A stretch of DNA of 27,929 bases from positions 1 to 27,929 of IMG/VR virus record IMGVR_UViG_3300002835_000872. One strand, written 5' to 3'. The DNA is from a virus. The notes under the pieces were generated by a model that was not told the DNA's origin, made no database searches, and was given only the letters and a program-made list of their open reading frames with translations. Each line of letters starts with the position of its first letter. The first letter of the stretch is position 1. The position numbers were made by a program, and so were the translations under genes. This document shows, in pieces, positions 22,368 to 27,929 of this stretch.

Positions 22368-23270
22368 ATGGCAAGAGTCATTTCAGGCGGATCAGCAGGA
22401 GATCCAACAGTCGGTGGTATTACTGTTACCTCTCAGGCTACCGTATCCGCTAGCTCAAACGTTGACATCACATTAGATCCTCAAGGTACAGGTAGAGTTC
22501 TTATTGCAGGCGATATGCAACTGCAGGCGCAGGGCGACTTAAGATTTGCCGATGCAGATTCTTCTAATTATGTGGCATTCCAAGCACCCGGAACAGTTGC
22601 TTCAAATCTTACTTGGACATTACCTGCCGCAGACGGATCCAACGGACAATCATTGGTAACTAACGGTTCGGGAACATTGAGTTTTACAACTGTTGGCCCA
22701 GCGGTCACAGATAATACCAGCGATACTGGAACAAACTATATGTTGTTTGGTACCGTAACTTCTGGAAGTTTAACCGCAGCTCGTGTTTCATCTACAAAGG
22801 TAACATTCCAGCCAAGCACTGGTAGATTAACGACAACAGAAATTGAAACATCGGGTAGAGCCAATATCAAACACGTTGAAACATCAACTCAAACCGGCAA
22901 CTATTCTGCTGCACTTACAGATGCAGGCGGCGTTGTATTTTTTAATAATACTTCAGCAGCTCAGATTACAGTCCCTGCCGACAGTACAACTAATTTTCCA
23001 GTAGGATCTTTCTTGTATATTTACAGAGGCAATACAGGAACAGTAGAGTTAGTTGCTGGGGGCGGTGTAACTCTAAGTAAAACAGGATTTTTAGCTTCAG
23101 GCGAACAGCTTTATCTAAGAAAACGAGCAGCCAATACGTGGGTAGTTGTTGATACTCCGCAAACTATTTCGTTTGCTGCTACCGGCGGCACTATTGCAAC
23201 CGCTGGCGGATTTAGAACCCATTCATTTAACTCTACAGGCTCAAGTTCATTAGCCATTACTGTTACTTAA
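22368..23270 (+). CDS. Tail-fibre structural protein (300 aa), ending at a fibre-tip motif
   Basis: The N-terminal shaft has V-D-I-T-L-D-P-Q-G-T-G-R-V-L-I and D-L-R-F-A-D-A-D-S-S-N-Y-V-A-F. The common fibre segment L-T-W-T-L-P-A-A-D-G-S-N-G-Q-S-L comes next (about 83-98), and a beta-rich domain spans about 170-262. The last residues contain T-A-G-G-F-R-T-H-S-F (278-287), which in many phage fibres leads into a glycine-rich tip. Here the protein stops 13 residues later with no glycine-rich region. A similar motif opens the glycine-rich protein at 27137. The stop overlaps the stop of the convergent oxygenase gene by four bases. RBS GAGGAATAA. Confidence 0.75.
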   Translation: MARVISGGSAGDPTVGGITVTSQATVSASSNVDITLDPQGTGRVLIAGDMQLQAQGDLRFADADSSNYVAFQAPGTVASNLTWTLPAADGSNGQSLVTNGSGTLSFTTVGPAVTDNTSDTGTNYMLFGTVTSGSLTAARVSSTKVTFQPSTGRLTTTEIETSGRANIKHVETSTQTGNYSAALTDAGGVVFFNNTSAAQITVPADSTTNFPVGSFLYIYRGNTGTVELVAGGGVTLSKTGFLASGEQLYLRKRAANTWVVVDTPQTISFAATGGTIATAGGFRTHSFNSTGSSSLAITVT

Positions 23271-23872
23271 TTAAATCTAAAATTCATAGCGATACTGATT
23301 CTGTCAGTGTCGCTATTGTTTTTTTCTACCATATGTAGTAGATTTGATCTAAAAATCAAAATCATCGATTCTTTTGGAGTATAAAAACAGCTTTTATATG
23401 AAGCCGATGTATAATTACCGGCATCGATAGGAAGTTGACACATATCTGCAAAAGATTCAATAGTTTTAAATAAAATATTTCCGCAATTATTATTTGCTTT
23501 AACATAGTAGACAAGACTAAAATGTGAATCACTGTGTTGATGATATTCTTGAAAACTTCCTATAGCTCCGATATTAAACCAAAGCTCGTCACAGCTAAGA
23601 CTATCTAAGGATTTATTGATGCCGTACTGCCGAGAAAATTCTAATACTTTTAATTTACAGATATTAATCAGTTGATTTATTTGTTGATCATTATCAAGCT
23701 TATAATTAAATTTGCCCAACGTGTTGTACGTATCACAATTCCAAGTTGTACCTGTTAAGTTTTCATTATTTTTTTGAATATAGTAAGCTTTATTAGAAAA
23801 ATAAGAATTTCTATCTTTGAATTCTTCTAAAACTTCATGAGAAATTAAAGTGGGGAACCAAGAGTCTATCAT
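23267..23872 (-). CDS. 2OG-Fe(II) oxygenase family protein (201 aa)
   Basis: A putative 2-oxoglutarate/Fe(II) dioxygenase, hydroxylating an unknown substrate. The metal-binding set is visible: H113-S-D115 (in YHQHSDSHFS), H180 (in S-N-L-L-H) and R191 in D-R-I-S-I-A-M-N-F for 2-oxoglutarate. L-V-Y-Y-V-K after the H-x-D is the usual next strand. The opening W-F-P-T-L-I resembles the family often called TIGR02466-type; that name is from memory. It is the last gene of the reverse block and overlaps the preceding one by four bases (ATGA), so it is translationally coupled. It has no terminator of its own that I can see, and its 3' end hosts the forward terminator. Confidence 0.8.
   Translation of the reverse strand: MIDSWFPTLISHEVLEEFKDRNSYFSNKAYYIQKNNENLTGTTWNCDTYNTLGKFNYKLDNDQQINQLINICKLKVLEFSRQYGINKSLDSLSCDELWFNIGAIGSFQEYHQHSDSHFSLVYYVKANNNCGNILFKTIESFADMCQLPIDAGNYTSASYKSCFYTPKESMILIFRSNLLHMVEKNNSDTDRISIAMNFRFN
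23286..23325 (+). terminator. Strong intrinsic terminator of the fibre operon, inside the convergent gene
   Basis: The stem pairs 23286-23298 with 23304-23316 (13 base pairs, one G-T) around a five-base loop, and is followed by T-G and seven Ts (23319-23325). It acts on the forward transcript, 16 bases after the fibre stop. The same bases encode the last residues of the reverse-strand oxygenase, including its presumed 2OG-binding Arg. Confidence 0.9.
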
Positions 23873-24510
23873 TTGAATTCTAAATAAGATTTATTAGAAA
23901 AACTTTTTAGCTGTGTTCTTTTTTCTTCCGGTAGTAATCCTAGCTGCTCTCTTTTATCAAATTTAAAATCGGCACAGGGACCATCTTGATTAACATAATG
24001 AAAAAACCCTTGTGCGTGCCAAACATCATCAGAATGATTCAGCGGATACCTCCAATGGGGTAAATCCATTCCTCGGTAAATTAACATATCACCTGGTTTA
24101 AGATCGGCAGGAAAATCGTTTGCGATGTAAATGGGCCAACTAAATGCGTTGTCATCGTAGCTGTAGTTAAAACACAAAGTACAGGAAATTTCACAAGATG
24201 GTCTATCGGTGTGCTTAACTAATTCTGCGCCGTTTCTATAAATCCTGTAATAAGAATAAGTAGGATGAAGTTTTAAACCAGTTGCTTCTTCCATAGTTTT
24301 TCGTAGATGTAGTAAAACTGTTTCCGTGACTGGATTAGCATAAGAAGCGTACGATCCGGGGACCTGAGCGTCCTCTCCGTTGATGCCAGGAACGAATCTT
24401 TGACTCTCATCAAATAACAATGTCTGTGTTACAAAATCTCTCAACTCATCAGATATTGCAGATCTAACTATGCAATAACCTTTTTTAGAAAATTCGTTTT
24501 GTGTACTCAT
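23869..24510 (-). CDS. 2OG-Fe(II) oxygenase, prolyl-hydroxylase-like (213 aa)
   Basis: A putative dioxygenase with the double-stranded beta-helix signature. Y-Y-R-I-Y-R-N-G-A-E-L (87-97) is followed by H100-T-D102, then C-T-L-C-F-N-Y-S strands, L-K-P-G-D-M-L-I-Y-R-G (137-147) and the distal His H152 with R154. Further His residues (H165, H171) lie in W-H-A-Q-G-F-F-H. The N-terminal F-x-K-K-G-Y-C-I-V-R-S-A-I-S is typical of the phytanoyl/prolyl hydroxylase style. The C-terminus is basic and charged. The ATG lies three bases after the preceding stop, with a weak GGATAA. The substrate is unknown; a protein or a small molecule are both possible. Confidence 0.82.
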   Translation of the reverse strand: MSTQNEFSKKGYCIVRSAISDELRDFVTQTLLFDESQRFVPGINGEDAQVPGSYASYANPVTETVLLHLRKTMEEATGLKLHPTYSYYRIYRNGAELVKHTDRPSCEISCTLCFNYSYDDNAFSWPIYIANDFPADLKPGDMLIYRGMDLPHWRYPLNHSDDVWHAQGFFHYVNQDGPCADFKFDKREQLGLLPEEKRTQLKSFSNKSYLEFK

Positions 24511-24513
24511 ATT

Positions 24514-25281
24514 TTATCCAAAGTATTTTTTAAAAGGGCAAGAAGATTTTTCTTCTATTGATGTTTGCAATTTCTTCTTTCTATTGTAAAATTTTACAGC
24601 ATCATCTGAATTTCTTCTAAAAAGAAACCTATCTACGCCAAAAATTCTCAGCCATTCTTCTTTGCTTACTAAATGATTTTTTATTTTTATTTTTCTCTCA
24701 GTTAGAGGGTGCAGAATAGCCAACGGTGTTAACGGTGAAATATTTATTTTTTTACTCTGCAGTTGATTAACGATAAAAAAATTAATCTCTGTAGCGTGTT
24801 GAAATTTATAGTTTACGGTTGCTGGCAGTATCGTTAAATCGCATAGCAGATCCCTCATATTCCAAGTTGGCTGTGTCCAGGTAAAATAAATTTCTTCTTT
24901 GGTTCTAAAGGCCCACGGGCTAGTTATTTTGATATTTTTACCAGACTCGCCAGCAAATCCAAAAAACTGAGAAGGTTTGTGAGAGTTATCTGTATTAACA
25001 TCTTGATTGCTGGCCTGCCATCTATACAATTCGGGATTCCCTTGTTCTAAAATATCTACATCCATTTCAAACCATGAAGGAATAACGATACCTTTTTTAT
25101 AAAATTCAATAAATCCAGGACAATTTTTAATAGTAGCTTCGCTGTCAACATTCACAGCAGGAGTTTCTTTCCACCAATTCGGGACAAATTTTGTTGCATG
25201 ATCTATTTTTGCATGATCGTAGACATACGGAACATGAGTAAAACAATCTAAAACGATTTCTTTAGATTTGTTAAAAATCAT
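24514..25281 (-). CDS. Unrecognised protein within the oxygenase block (255 aa)
   Basis: I do not recognise this family with confidence. The start is the ATG at 25281, which overlaps the preceding stop as ATGA; a TTG seven codons upstream (25302) is less likely. Visible motifs are F-V-P-N-W-W-K-E-T-P (32-41), T-I-K-N-C-P-G-F-I-E-F (50-60) and G-I-V-I-P-S-W-F-E-M-D-V-D-I (64-77). F-F-G-F-A-G, T-W-T-Q-P-T-W and an F-Q-H-A-T-E-I-N-F-F strand follow, then L-H-P-L-T-E-R-K, and a basic C-terminus with CPFKKYFG. It has no H-x-D set and no signal peptide. The fixed Trp, Cys-Pro-Gly and aromatic pattern suggests a folded, perhaps binding or catalytic, domain that works with the neighbouring oxygenases. 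Confidence 0.75.
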   Translation of the reverse strand: MIFNKSKEIVLDCFTHVPYVYDHAKIDHATKFVPNWWKETPAVNVDSEATIKNCPGFIEFYKKGIVIPSWFEMDVDILEQGNPELYRWQASNQDVNTDNSHKPSQFFGFAGESGKNIKITSPWAFRTKEEIYFTWTQPTWNMRDLLCDLTILPATVNYKFQHATEINFFIVNQLQSKKINISPLTPLAILHPLTERKIKIKNHLVSKEEWLRIFGVDRFLFRRNSDDAVKFYNRKKKLQTSIEEKSSCPFKKYFG

Positions 25282-25907
25282 ATTTGTCGATCTCTGATCC
25301 AAGTAACCAAGGCATATTTTGTTCCTTCGATTACGGGATGTGCTACGTGTGTATAAGCAAAATTACTAGGAAATAGAATTAACATTCCAGGCTGAGGCTT
25401 GATCTTTACACCAAAATGCGTAAATTCTAATTCTCCACCTTTGTAATCGTTGTTAAGGTATACTAAAGCAGATACTGCTCTAGCCATAGCTGTGCCGCCA
25501 TCATAATGTGCCTTATATTCTTCTCCACCCCTATACTTTAATAAATTATAACCCTCGTGCCAAAAAGGTTCTTGTATGCCTAATCTCTTTGCATAAGGTA
25601 TAGTTGACGCTAATAATAAAAGATTAAGTTGATTATGAATATTTTGCAGAACGGGGTTGCCGCTTACCTGAGCCAAATGTGTAATAGCCATCAACTTATT
25701 GGTTCTATAATTTTGAAAAGGCCCATCGGTTACAGTTCCTGCCTGTTCCCAAAAAGCTCCGCTGTCTGGATTGGATGCTTCTTCTTCGACCATCTTTATA
25801 GTTTCAGATGGATTCGGCCAAGCATTTTCAAAAATATCAATACAACCAGCTACTGTTGTGCTGGCTTTAATTTCTCCGGGAAATATCCCATTTACCATAG
25901 ATGTCAT
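25278..25907 (-). CDS. 2OG-Fe(II) oxygenase, prolyl 4-hydroxylase-like (209 aa)
   Basis: The clearest of the four oxygenases. Y-N-L-L-K-Y-R-G-G-E-E-Y (120-131) leads to the metal pair H134-Y-D136. Next come the core strand A-L-V-Y-L-N and G-G-E-L-E-F (158-162), L-I-L-F-P-S (176-181), and the distal H187 in T-H-V-A-H-P-V. K197 in E-G-T-K-Y-A-L-V-T-W takes the place of the usual 2-oxoglutarate-binding Arg/Lys. This is the P4H layout used on peptidyl proline and on small molecules. The start has a good AGGAAT site, and a candidate sigma-70-type promoter lies just upstream. Translation of the next gene is coupled through ATGA. Confidence 0.88.
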   Translation of the reverse strand: MTSMVNGIFPGEIKASTTVAGCIDIFENAWPNPSETIKMVEEEASNPDSGAFWEQAGTVTDGPFQNYRTNKLMAITHLAQVSGNPVLQNIHNQLNLLLLASTIPYAKRLGIQEPFWHEGYNLLKYRGGEEYKAHYDGGTAMARAVSALVYLNNDYKGGELEFTHFGVKIKPQPGMLILFPSNFAYTHVAHPVIEGTKYALVTWIRDRQI

Positions 25908-25921
25908 AAATTATTCCTAAT

Positions 25922-25951
25922 ATTATATTTAAAGGCCGCTTTAACGATCAA
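25922..25951 (-). promoter_or_regulatory. Candidate sigma-70-like promoter within the reverse block
   Basis: On the reverse strand TTGATC (25951-25946) and a perfect TATAAT (25927-25922) are separated by 18 bases, 14 bases before the oxygenase start. This fits host-type early transcription. The leader would be very short, which weakens the call. Confidence 0.4.
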
Positions 25952-25963
25952 AATCATTGTCAA

Positions 25964-26536
25964 CTATTCTTTGATCCAGCACCATGTGTTGTCAAAACAA
26001 CTAAGCTGTGCAGTAATATGTTTTTTATCTCTAAATTCGAGAACAGACTGTTGAATCAATACGCTGTCCCAATCGTGCCCAGAAAATAAGCCCCCAGTTT
26101 TCAGTTTCGGATACCATTCACAAAGGTCTTTGTCGCTTTGTTCTTTAGTCATATAAGTATCTATGAATATAAAATCGAAAGTTTCATCGTCGAATAATCC
26201 TAAAGCCTTTGAGCTATCCTCTTCAATTAATTCCGCTTTGTGATTATTATCACAAAATCTAATGTTGTGTATAGCAGTGTGTTTTATACAATCTACAGCT
26301 TTTTCGTCCCAGATAATAGGCGGATCTGCCAATCGATCAACATAAGGTAAAAATGCGTCTATTCCGTATAATTTTTTAATATTTGGACAATTTGATAAAA
26401 ACGTGCAGAAAGTATGAGCCTTAAAAACTCCTAGTTCTAAACCTATGAGATTCGATCCTAATTTTAAATTTATTAGGTGCACCAAACTTTGGCCGTCATT
26501 GTACTTGTCGTTAAAAGAATAATTCAATTTTTCCAT
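25964..26536 (-). CDS. Class I SAM-dependent methyltransferase (190 aa)
   Basis: A putative S-adenosylmethionine methyltransferase of the Methyltransf_24 style. Motif I is I-G-L-E-L-G-V-F-K-A (31-40), and the acidic end of strand two is Y-G-I-D-A-F (57-62). F-D-F-I-F-I-D-T-Y-M-T (120-130) provides the strand-four Asp, and L-K-T-G-G-L-F-S-G-H-D-W (145-156) is the family's usual G-G-x(3)-x-H-D-W ending. The length is short but complete. Members often modify sugars or small molecules, though the substrate cannot be read here. The start overlaps the preceding oxygenase by 13 bases with no clear ribosome site, so translation is probably coupled. A 56-base gap separates it from the next gene. Confidence 0.85.
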   Translation of the reverse strand: MEKLNYSFNDKYNDGQSLVHLINLKLGSNLIGLELGVFKAHTFCTFLSNCPNIKKLYGIDAFLPYVDRLADPPIIWDEKAVDCIKHTAIHNIRFCDNNHKAELIEEDSSKALGLFDDETFDFIFIDTYMTKEQSDKDLCEWYPKLKTGGLFSGHDWDSVLIQQSVLEFRDKKHITAQLSCFDNTWCWIKE

Positions 26537-27036
26537 TTGTAATAATTAAAATTAATCACACATCTCACTTTCTCATTGGAACTAGTTGTTCCGGTATGTC
26601 GCATATCAGCGGGAAAAATAATCATCCTATTAGCTGTTGATTCGATAATTTCGCCCGATTCAAATTCAGTAAAACCATTGTTAGAATTTACGTAAAATAT
26701 AGCAGTCTCACCGTTGAAATTTTCAAAATCCACGTGCATAGGATATTTGATTATATCCTGTGTTCTCGTAGTTAGGTTTGCTTTGATTCTCACTAATGCA
26801 GATGGGTTTAAAAAATTTATCAAAGGTTGCAATGCATCAATGTACCTGCTCTGCGCAGAATAGTTATTGTAAAAAATGTGCTGAAACTGAAAGTCAAATT
26901 CGTTGCCCTTATAATCACTGTAATTTTTACCTACTTTATAAGGAAAATAAAACCAAGGAAAATCGTTTCCTAGCAGAGATTGTTGCAGATGTGCAAGATC
27001 TGCATCAGCGAGTACATTGTCTTTTTTTACGATCAT
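26524..27036 (-). CDS. 2OG-Fe(II) oxygenase-like protein (170 aa)
   Basis: A compact putative dioxygenase: Y-P-M-H101-V-D103 supplies the metal pair, followed by a T-A-I-F-Y-V-N strand (111-117). M-I-I-F-P-A-D-M-R-H147-T-G supplies the distal His, and R158 (K-V-R-C-V-I-N-F) the 2-oxoglutarate contact. This matches a short phage oxygenase type with H-x-D-F-x-N-F. It is the first gene of the reverse block and diverges from the glycine-rich gene at 27137 across 100 bases. No strong ribosome-binding site is seen before the ATG. A GTTAAATA motif lies close upstream on the reverse strand (27050-27043), but too close to be a convincing promoter. Confidence 0.8.
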   Translation of the reverse strand: MIVKKDNVLADADLAHLQQSLLGNDFPWFYFPYKVGKNYSDYKGNEFDFQFQHIFYNNYSAQSRYIDALQPLINFLNPSALVRIKANLTTRTQDIIKYPMHVDFENFNGETAIFYVNSNNGFTEFESGEIIESTANRMIIFPADMRHTGTTSSNEKVRCVINFNYYKWKN

Positions 27037-27136: not shown

Positions 27137-27929
27137 ATGCCATTTATAACTAGCATTAGAAAAAATCATCTACAAGAACAACCAAATACCGTAGATCTAC
27201 CAAAAGATCTATGGATTATAGAAGGTGGAGATTCTGTAGTTACCGCAGGCGGATACAGAATTCATACATTTCTCAGAGGACAAAGCGAATTAAAAGTTCT
27301 ACTTAATCCTAAATATCAACAGTACGCAGATAAAATCGCGCTCACATCAGGATCGTCTACTAAATCAGCAGATTATCTTGTGATCGGTGCAGGCGGTGGC
27401 GGTGGCTGCGATATCGGCGATGCTGGCGCAGGCGGTGGTGGTGGCGCAGGCGGATATGCTTCTGGAACTGTGACACTGGGTGCAGGAACCTATCCTACCA
27501 GTGTCGGAACTGGCGGCCCCGGCGCTCCTCCAAACACACGTAACCCAGGAGCCACTTACCAAGGCGGTGACACCACATTTGGCGGCCCAGCTCCCGTAAC
27601 ATCCACCGGTGGCGGCGGCGGCGGTAGTCCTAGTGCTAATGCTAATCCTGGCGGATCTGGAGGTGGTGCAGGCGCTAACCCTTCTTCACCAGGGAGTGGA
27701 ACCCCGGGACAAGGAAATCCGGGAGGATCATCTGGTACTTTTTATGCAGCAGGTGGCGGCGGCTCAGGTGGCGGCGGTAATCCAACTCCGGGTGGTAATG
27801 GTGGTCCAGGCGGCAGCGGCACAACTTGGCCTGTTAACTCTTTAGTATATTCAGGCGGTGGCGGTGGCGGTGGCAGCGTTCCGAGAGGCCCGCAAGGCGG
27901 ATCAGGTGGCTCTAGCGTGGGAGGTATTG
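27137..27929 (+). CDS. Glycine-rich adhesin-like tail protein, 3' end outside window
   Basis: The reading frame from the ATG at 27137 stays open to the window edge (264 codons). The N-terminal 80 residues are ordinary and include T-A-G-G-Y-R-I-H-T-F (36-45), then S-A-D-Y-L-V-I-G-A-G-G-G-G-G. After that the protein is dominated by Gly with Pro, Ser and Asn. Such regions occur in phage receptor-binding proteins; T-even gp38 adhesins use glycine-rich strands packed as polyglycine helices at the fibre tip. There is no long shaft before it, so it may cap another fibre. Gly-codon use raises local GC well above neighbouring genes. The identity as an adhesin is inference from composition and context. 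Confidence 0.75.
   Translation, partial: MPFITSIRKNHLQEQPNTVDLPKDLWIIEGGDSVVTAGGYRIHTFLRGQSELKVLLNPKYQQYADKIALTSGSSTKSADYLVIGAGGGGGCDIGDAGAGGGGGAGGYASGTVTLGAGTYPTSVGTGGPGAPPNTRNPGATYQGGDTTFGGPAPVTSTGGGGGGSPSANANPGGSGGGAGANPSSPGSGTPGQGNPGGSSGTFYAAGGGGSGGGGNPTPGGNGGPGGSGTTWPVNSLVYSGGGGGGGSVPRGPQGGSGGSSVGGI

Follow-up and report, generated by a model that had tools for sequence, protein, structure and literature searches.

What does a tightly packed run of oxygenase-like genes do in the middle of a phage tail-fibre locus? The question is raised by a DNA stretch of 27,929 nucleotides (positions 1 to 27,929 of the IMG/VR virus record IMGVR_UViG_3300002835_000872, hereafter the window), in which six open reading frames (ORFs), P1 to P6, occupy 23267-27036 on the minus strand, and all other substantial genes lie on the plus strand. 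By sequence or predicted fold, P1, P2, P4 and P6 are 2-oxoglutarate (2OG)-Fe(II) oxygenase-like. The block is probably an operon devoted to post-translational modification of the Gly-rich, receptor-binding adhesin encoded next to it. The evidence is linkage, fold and covariation, compared across hundreds of relatives, from which we infer the modification itself. The features in question are as follows.

23267..23872, minus strand: P1, predicted 2OG-Fe(II) oxygenase of the PF13759/TIGR02466 type (Pfam 1e-16; phrog_81 1.9e-31; TIGR02466 7e-23)
23869..24510, minus strand: P2, prolyl-hydroxylase-like 2OG oxygenase, H100-x-D102...H152 (phrog_2954 5.4e-48; predicted fold)
24514..25281, minus strand: P3, protein of predicted dUTPase fold (beta-clip), phrog_7084 (AlphaFold2 (AF2) model and Foldseek)
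25278..25907, minus strand: P4, prolyl-4-hydroxylase-like 2OG oxygenase, H134-x-D136...H187 (PF13640 8.4e-16; PDB profile matches)
25964..26536, minus strand: P5, Methyltransf_24-type S-adenosylmethionine methyltransferase, accessory (PF13578 6.1e-11)
26524..27036, minus strand: P6, 2OG oxygenase-like, H101-x-D103...H147, R158 (phrog_274 1.7e-45; PF13640 3e-4, below cut-off)
27137..27929, plus strand: Gly-rich adhesin-like fibre protein, the proposed substrate (ORF; phrog_2295; composition; cut by the window end)

An earlier note on this DNA had described a single, tightly coupled six-gene unit running opposite to the other genes, and the ORFs and their spacings confirm it. P1 and P2 share a 4-base ATGA overlap, P2 and P3 are separated by 3 bases, P4 and P3 again overlap at ATGA provided that P3 starts at the ATG at 25281, P5 and P4 are 56 bases apart, and P6 and P5 overlap by 13 bases. 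All six proteins have relatives with conserved residues, and two sister contigs hold the identical gene set with 96-100% protein identity. Since the relatives keep these residues and the block recurs on two contigs, it cannot be put down to chance ORFs.

Proteins encoded by the block

The two enzymes at the centre of our argument, P2 and P4, are closest to prolyl hydroxylases, P2 by its predicted fold and P4 by its sequence profile. The AF2 model of P2 (predicted local distance difference test, pLDDT, 91.8; predicted template modelling score, pTM, 0.87) returned prolyl hydroxylases as all 50 of its top 50 Foldseek matches (best 5.3e-10), the first being the Pseudomonas putida prolyl 4-hydroxylase (P4H) that was also crystallised with EF-Tu. 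Its H-x-D...H iron site is conserved in 28 of 29 relatives at each position. The alignment profile of P4 matched the prolyl 4-hydroxylases 3itq and 5hv0 in the PDB at 1.9e-14, as well as PHD2 and LH3, and its iron site is kept in 26-27 of 27 relatives. The name 'ferrochelatase', given to the P2 family in PHROGs and RefSeq, was rejected on the same Foldseek result and on the lack of any Pfam match at E<=1. Closer PDB relatives were sought by sequence for P2, P3, P5 and P6, and none were found.

P6 keeps its iron site in 20 of 21 relatives. The database name of its family, 'DNA endonuclease V', was likewise set aside, as Pfam gave 2OG families only, both below the cut-off. P1 belongs with PF13759, a family named putative 2OG oxygenase, and matches 3bvc and 2rg4 in the PDB. 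H-S-D occurs in P1 itself, yet its relatives do not keep an H-x-D/E...H iron site: H111-x-H113...H180 is invariant, R191 is present in 21/24 and D115 in just 2/24. Thus, where the earlier note counted four complete H-x-D...H sets, they stand for P2, P4 and P6 (the last with R158) and fall for P1.

As a side observation, four families (phrog_2954, phrog_3531, phrog_274 and phrog_1644) are 2OG-oxygenase-like and carry apparently wrong names in many cyanophage records, the names at issue being 'ferrochelatase', 'DNA endonuclease V' and 'minor coat protein' (window 23869-24510 and 26524-27036; locus L006). One of them, phrog_3531, unites P2-like and P4-like parts.

The remaining two proteins are of other kinds. 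For P3, the AF2 model (pLDDT 87.3, pTM 0.82) gave dUTPase or dCTP deaminase for 50 of the top 50 Foldseek matches (best 8.7e-4, probability 1.0, TM-score by query about 0.3), and sequence profiles gave no Pfam family at E<=1 and no NCBIfam match. W36 and C54 are invariant, and the probable start is the ATG at 25281 rather than the listed TTG at 25302, since relatives begin MFFxKKKE. The motif-3 Asp of dUTPases was not found in P3, the GxVDTD of distant relatives reading PATVNYKFQ in the window protein. P3 is therefore modelled with a dUTPase fold that does not imply dUTPase activity, the sequence features of dUTPases being absent. A tblastn search of the phage collection with P3 returned no match. 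Bacterial homologues of P3 occur in Rhizobiales and other alphaproteobacteria, some next to genes resembling extracytoplasmic function (ECF) sigma and anti-sigma factors, and offered no functional clue; at L138, L140, L162 and other Rhizobiales loci the chromosomal homologue adjoins what appear to be genes for an ECF sigma factor and an anti-sigma factor. Another phage group, which lacks the oxygenases (L019-L036), has a P3 homologue among NUDIX, HldE-like kinase, epimerase-like and cupin-like genes, and this run directly precedes a giant fibre gene. P5 is restricted to close kin of the window phage and to unrelated phage loci that have homologues (49% identity) and neither cassette nor oxygenases. 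The methyltransferase, which the earlier note had made part of the pathway, is thus not a core component.

Linkage to Gly-rich fibre genes

The Gly-rich gene is cut short in the window and complete on the two sister contigs (L001 5213-6166), where it encodes 317 amino acids and is followed by more fibre genes. In the window, its Gly-rich part comprises 179 residues, with 41% Gly, 19 Pro and 0 His. From its sequence type, with GGGG runs, and its place, the protein is probably a tail-tip, receptor-binding adhesin. We took P4 and P2 adjoining a Gly-rich fibre gene as the definition of an adhesin-modification cassette, and this arrangement is present in both the window and L001.

Among IMG/VR relatives of P3 and P4, P4 and P2 are adjacent in most loci. 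P3, P1, P6 and flavin halogenases (one to three) often accompany them, and at L003 P2 forms a fusion with a halogenase. A core of (P3)-P4-P2 is conserved, to which halogenases of the VirX1 type have been added in many relatives; no flavin halogenase turned up in the window or either sister record, all of them fragments of 25.6-34 kb. P1 and P6 are present in some relatives and absent from others, so the gene set varies, and in this respect the earlier note's reading is not supported. Across 28 non-redundant loci, the Gly-rich gene was found in 14, always within 3 genes of the cassette; random insertion predicts about 7.

We also searched in the opposite direction, starting from the adhesin. 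Because tblastn apparently masks the Gly-rich part, these scans used DNA patterns drawn from the adhesin alone. In the group of the window phage, an N-terminal motif of the adhesin retrieved 42 records, of which 24 carried P4 and 20 carried P2, and the cassette mostly abuts the adhesin. In a podo-like group, the pattern came from an unrelated Gly-rich fibre protein (MPRIIK...GRV) and retrieved 80 loci with 52 non-redundant adhesins. P4 was present in 73/73 loci that extend 1.6 kb or more downstream of the adhesin, always starting at the second gene from it, and P4 together with P2 in 67/67 that extend 2.6 kb or more. The Syn10-type adhesin occurs in 14 records of cultured cyanophages, and every one of them is among the 60 with a VirX1-type halogenase, the genes lying no more than a few kb apart. 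The order is adhesin(s), a gene of about 135-220 amino acids, halogenase(s), P3 in some, and several 2OG oxygenases, and it recurs in Syn10, S-CREM1, S-WAM1, S-SZBM1, P-TIM40, P-RSM6, Sf-FP1 and S-RIM44. The cassette thus adjoins a Gly-rich putative adhesin in several phage groups.

If the genes had been scattered independently in related phages, the proposal of a joint pathway would have suffered. Such scattering was not seen for P4 and P2; it was seen for P5, and P3 also occurs without oxygenases in some phages. The outline of the earlier note's proposal, in which a dedicated modification pathway targets a fibre component, has good support from the linkage of core and adhesin in several groups and from the covariation in composition described below.

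Several observations concern the surroundings. At L406 (S-H35, and S-B64 too), a VirX1-type halogenase adjoins recombination endonuclease genes, away from any adhesin, so the adhesin pattern does not hold for every phage halogenase. In several groups, a protein of about 115-220 amino acids, of differing families, stands between adhesin and cassette and is a candidate adhesin chaperone. In the window, fibre genes flank the block on both sides (22368-23270; 27137-27929, the Gly-rich one), with further fibre genes beyond. The nearest match for the window's T4-type major head protein is in jumbo myoviruses (e.g. Phosso, PA5oct), and the fibre genes follow it on the plus strand. A terminator-like hairpin sits within the 3' coding end of the opposite-strand P1. 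These features are as follows.

22368..23270, plus strand: tail-fibre gene preceding the cassette and convergent with it (PHROG tail matches phrog_8780, phrog_16053)
23286..23316, plus strand: terminator-like hairpin of the plus-strand fibre gene (14-pair stem, T tail; pattern match only)
L013 11119-11541, L001 4771-5211 and L006 1844-2338: protein between adhesin and cassette

Adhesin composition and enzyme content

For the first group, each of the 20 residues in the Gly-rich part of 32 non-redundant adhesins was tested against each gene. Pro was the top residue for P4 (7.0 vs 2.8%; Mann-Whitney 3.7e-5; phylogenetic generalised least squares, PGLS, 2.6e-7) and was also associated with P2 (PGLS 5.6e-7). 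His was the top residue for the halogenase (2.6 vs 0.5%; Mann-Whitney 1.9e-5; PGLS 1.2e-4) and was associated with P3 too, less cleanly. When four contig-end records were excluded, the PGLS p values were 2.5e-3 for halogenase and His and 6.7e-6 for P4 and Pro. In a joint model of Pro, P4 raised it (8e-7), the halogenase was slightly negative (0.04) and P3 had no effect, which removes P3 as a proline partner. Adhesin Trp and Tyr do not follow the halogenase, and Trp was therefore dropped as its target. With per-record averages (27 records), the family-wise permutation p was 3.5e-4 for P4, with Pro on top, and 2e-4 for the halogenase, with His on top.

Controls on Pro of background proteins, GC content and adhesin N-termini showed no difference. 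Background His was higher with P4, which we attribute to the His-rich cassette enzymes, and its difference with the halogenase was non-significant. In P4-bearing adhesins, 45% of Pro (n=383) precede Gly, compared with 31% for other non-Gly residues. The Gly-rich part is poor in K/R.

A third adhesin type was scanned after the two predictions (halogenase with His, P4/P2 with Pro) had been written down. His again was the top residue with the halogenase (6.0 vs 0.5%, 12 vs 72 loci, p 2.5e-8), and Pro with P4/P2 (4.2 vs 2.0%, 4 vs 80 loci, p 0.0039). In cultured phages, adhesins near a halogenase have 3.9% His and 2.0% Pro, and those without one 1.6% His and 6.8% Pro (His versus halogenase per phage, p 0.043). 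The window phage fits this pattern, having P4 and P2, a Pro-rich adhesin with 0 His, and no halogenase in its records.

Alternatives, significance and known systems

Late in infection, P2 and P4 would hydroxylate prolines in the Gly-rich loops of the adhesin, often at X-Pro-Gly sites, P1 and P6 would oxidise other residues, and P5 would perhaps O-methylate one product. P3, with its dUTPase fold, would probably be a binding or handling partner rather than an oxygenase. In relatives, the VirX1-type flavin halogenase would act on, or next to, the adhesin histidines. The modified tip would be more stable, or would bind by chemistry outside the range of the 20 amino acids. A bolder form, which we put forward tentatively, is that aquatic phages make a hypermodified adhesin resembling the ribosomally synthesised and post-translationally modified peptides (RiPPs), with Pro hydroxylated by P2/P4, with His or residues of the same loops iodinated, brominated or chlorinated in relatives, and with the tail adhesin as the natural substrate of VirX1.

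Several points weigh against adhesin modification. A modified residue has so far been observed in no adhesin, and the label 'adhesin' itself comes from sequence type and place, not from experiment. P3 associates with His, whereas the window phage has P3 and 0 His. In the third scan, A, T, Y and Q also differ with the halogenase, as would be expected if the halogenase-bearing adhesins form one clade. In the small set of cultured phages (11 vs 3), Pro versus P4 did not reach significance (p 0.23). P2 homologues are paired with Pro-poor adhesins in Syn10, S-CREM1, Sf-FP1 and S-RIM44, so the presence of P2/P4 alone does not set Pro content. The C-terminal part of the S-T4 tail fibre (L408 1-888) has 20 His in 154 residues with no halogenase nearby. 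Finally, most records are fragments related by descent, the tree correction rests on one short domain, and common descent may inflate part of the covariation signal.

Fibre loci are known insertion hot spots, and the cassette might therefore be linked to the fibre tip by position only and modify host surface glycans or metabolites instead of the adhesin. Related P3 genes lying with HldE-like sugar genes beside fibres (L019-L036) and the variable copies of P5 and P1/P6 would suit such an origin. We consider it unlikely, because the order of adhesin, a gene of about 150 amino acids and cassette is constant in 73/73 loci of an unrelated group, and because the residue-specific covariation is confined to the Gly-rich part of the adhesin and was repeated in the predicted scan. 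A covariation arising merely through host or habitat, by shared descent and with no enzyme-substrate relation, would account for halogenase-bearing adhesins lying partly in clades and differing in other residues, and for the division of cultured cyanophages into His-rich ones with halogenase and Pro-rich ones without. Yet Pro and His remain on top in tree-corrected tests, neither GC content nor the Pro of background proteins and adhesin N-termini shifts, and proline is the very residue that matches the known chemistry of P4-like enzymes, which makes this explanation rather improbable.

Metabolic roles have been suggested for these enzymes in cyanophages, and passages of PMC3037559 and PMC9964418 name nitrogen signalling, DNA repair and antibiotic precursors; a virion proteome of S-CREM1 has also been measured (PMC9964418). 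A role of the oxygenases in nitrogen signalling or in lowering 2-oxoglutarate, and an antibiotic-type chlorotryptophan from the halogenase, both proposed in the literature, would leave the fixed adhesin linkage, the P2-halogenase fusion, the many enzymes per operon and the residue covariation unexplained, and adhesin Trp does not follow the halogenase; we regard these roles as very improbable here. The published proposals predict none of these linkage and composition patterns. Modification of phage DNA, by a dUTPase-fold protein, a TET/JBP-like oxygenase and an 'endonuclease V', seems hardly credible: the fold of P3, the PHROG names and a weak Tet_JBP score of P4 (9e-4, below cut-off) speak for it, but prolyl hydroxylases match P4 far better, the 'endonuclease V' family carries the 2OG motif and weak 2OG profile matches, and the cassette is located in fibre loci.

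If adhesin modification is true, it would explain the abundance of 2OG oxygenases, up to ten or more, in T4-like cyanophages and pelagiphages, would identify what the viral halogenase VirX1 acts on, and would mean that phages extend the chemistry of their host-binding tip past the 20 amino acids. The analysis also corrects two gene names that have been copied widely, 'ferrochelatase' and 'DNA endonuclease V'. Being widespread and easy to test, the cassette is of high interest, and we file it as a proposed case of virus-encoded virion-protein modification. The enzyme families of the cassette are already known. Our search of the open literature found no earlier report of hydroxylation or halogenation of a phage adhesin, and phage operons that serve to hydroxylate, and probably halogenate, an adhesin thus appear to be undescribed there.

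Enzymes of the same kinds were reported in T4-like cyanophages, as 2OG oxygenase clusters, a 'hypothetical with ferrochelatase domain' and the tryptophan halogenase PrnA (Sullivan 2010, PMC3037559). The passages concerned place them among the auxiliary metabolic genes, with roles in nitrogen or DNA repair, and draw no link to an adhesin. VirX1, the flavin-dependent halogenase of Syn10 (PDB 6QGM), has published small aromatic substrates (PMC8407142). Syn10 has two halogenases, and CPUG_00132, the one searched, matches VirX1 in the PDB at 1.6e-94. The same type is present in the operons of the cassette's relatives, unlike the window and its two sister records. We know of no natural substrate reported for VirX1. 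Known prolyl hydroxylases (P. putida PPHD crystallised with EF-Tu, PHD2/EGLN1, bacterial and algal P4H) resemble the predicted fold of P2, the profile of P4 and the H-x-D...H sites, but P2 is only about 11-20% identical to them, and the cassette enzymes are phage-encoded, in operons beside a fibre adhesin that is here a putative substrate. RiPP pathways likewise co-encode a substrate with its tailoring enzymes, and the oxygenases, methyltransferase and halogenase overlap; no leader, protease or exporter was seen here, with no search aimed at them made, and the proposed substrate is a structural fibre protein of about 300 amino acids. In mimivirus, the lysyl hydroxylase-glucosyltransferase L230 reportedly modifies viral collagen. 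That system would be alike in that a virus hydroxylates its own Gly-rich, fibre-type protein, and it differs in belonging to a giant virus of amoebae, in acting on lysine instead of proline and in its gene set.

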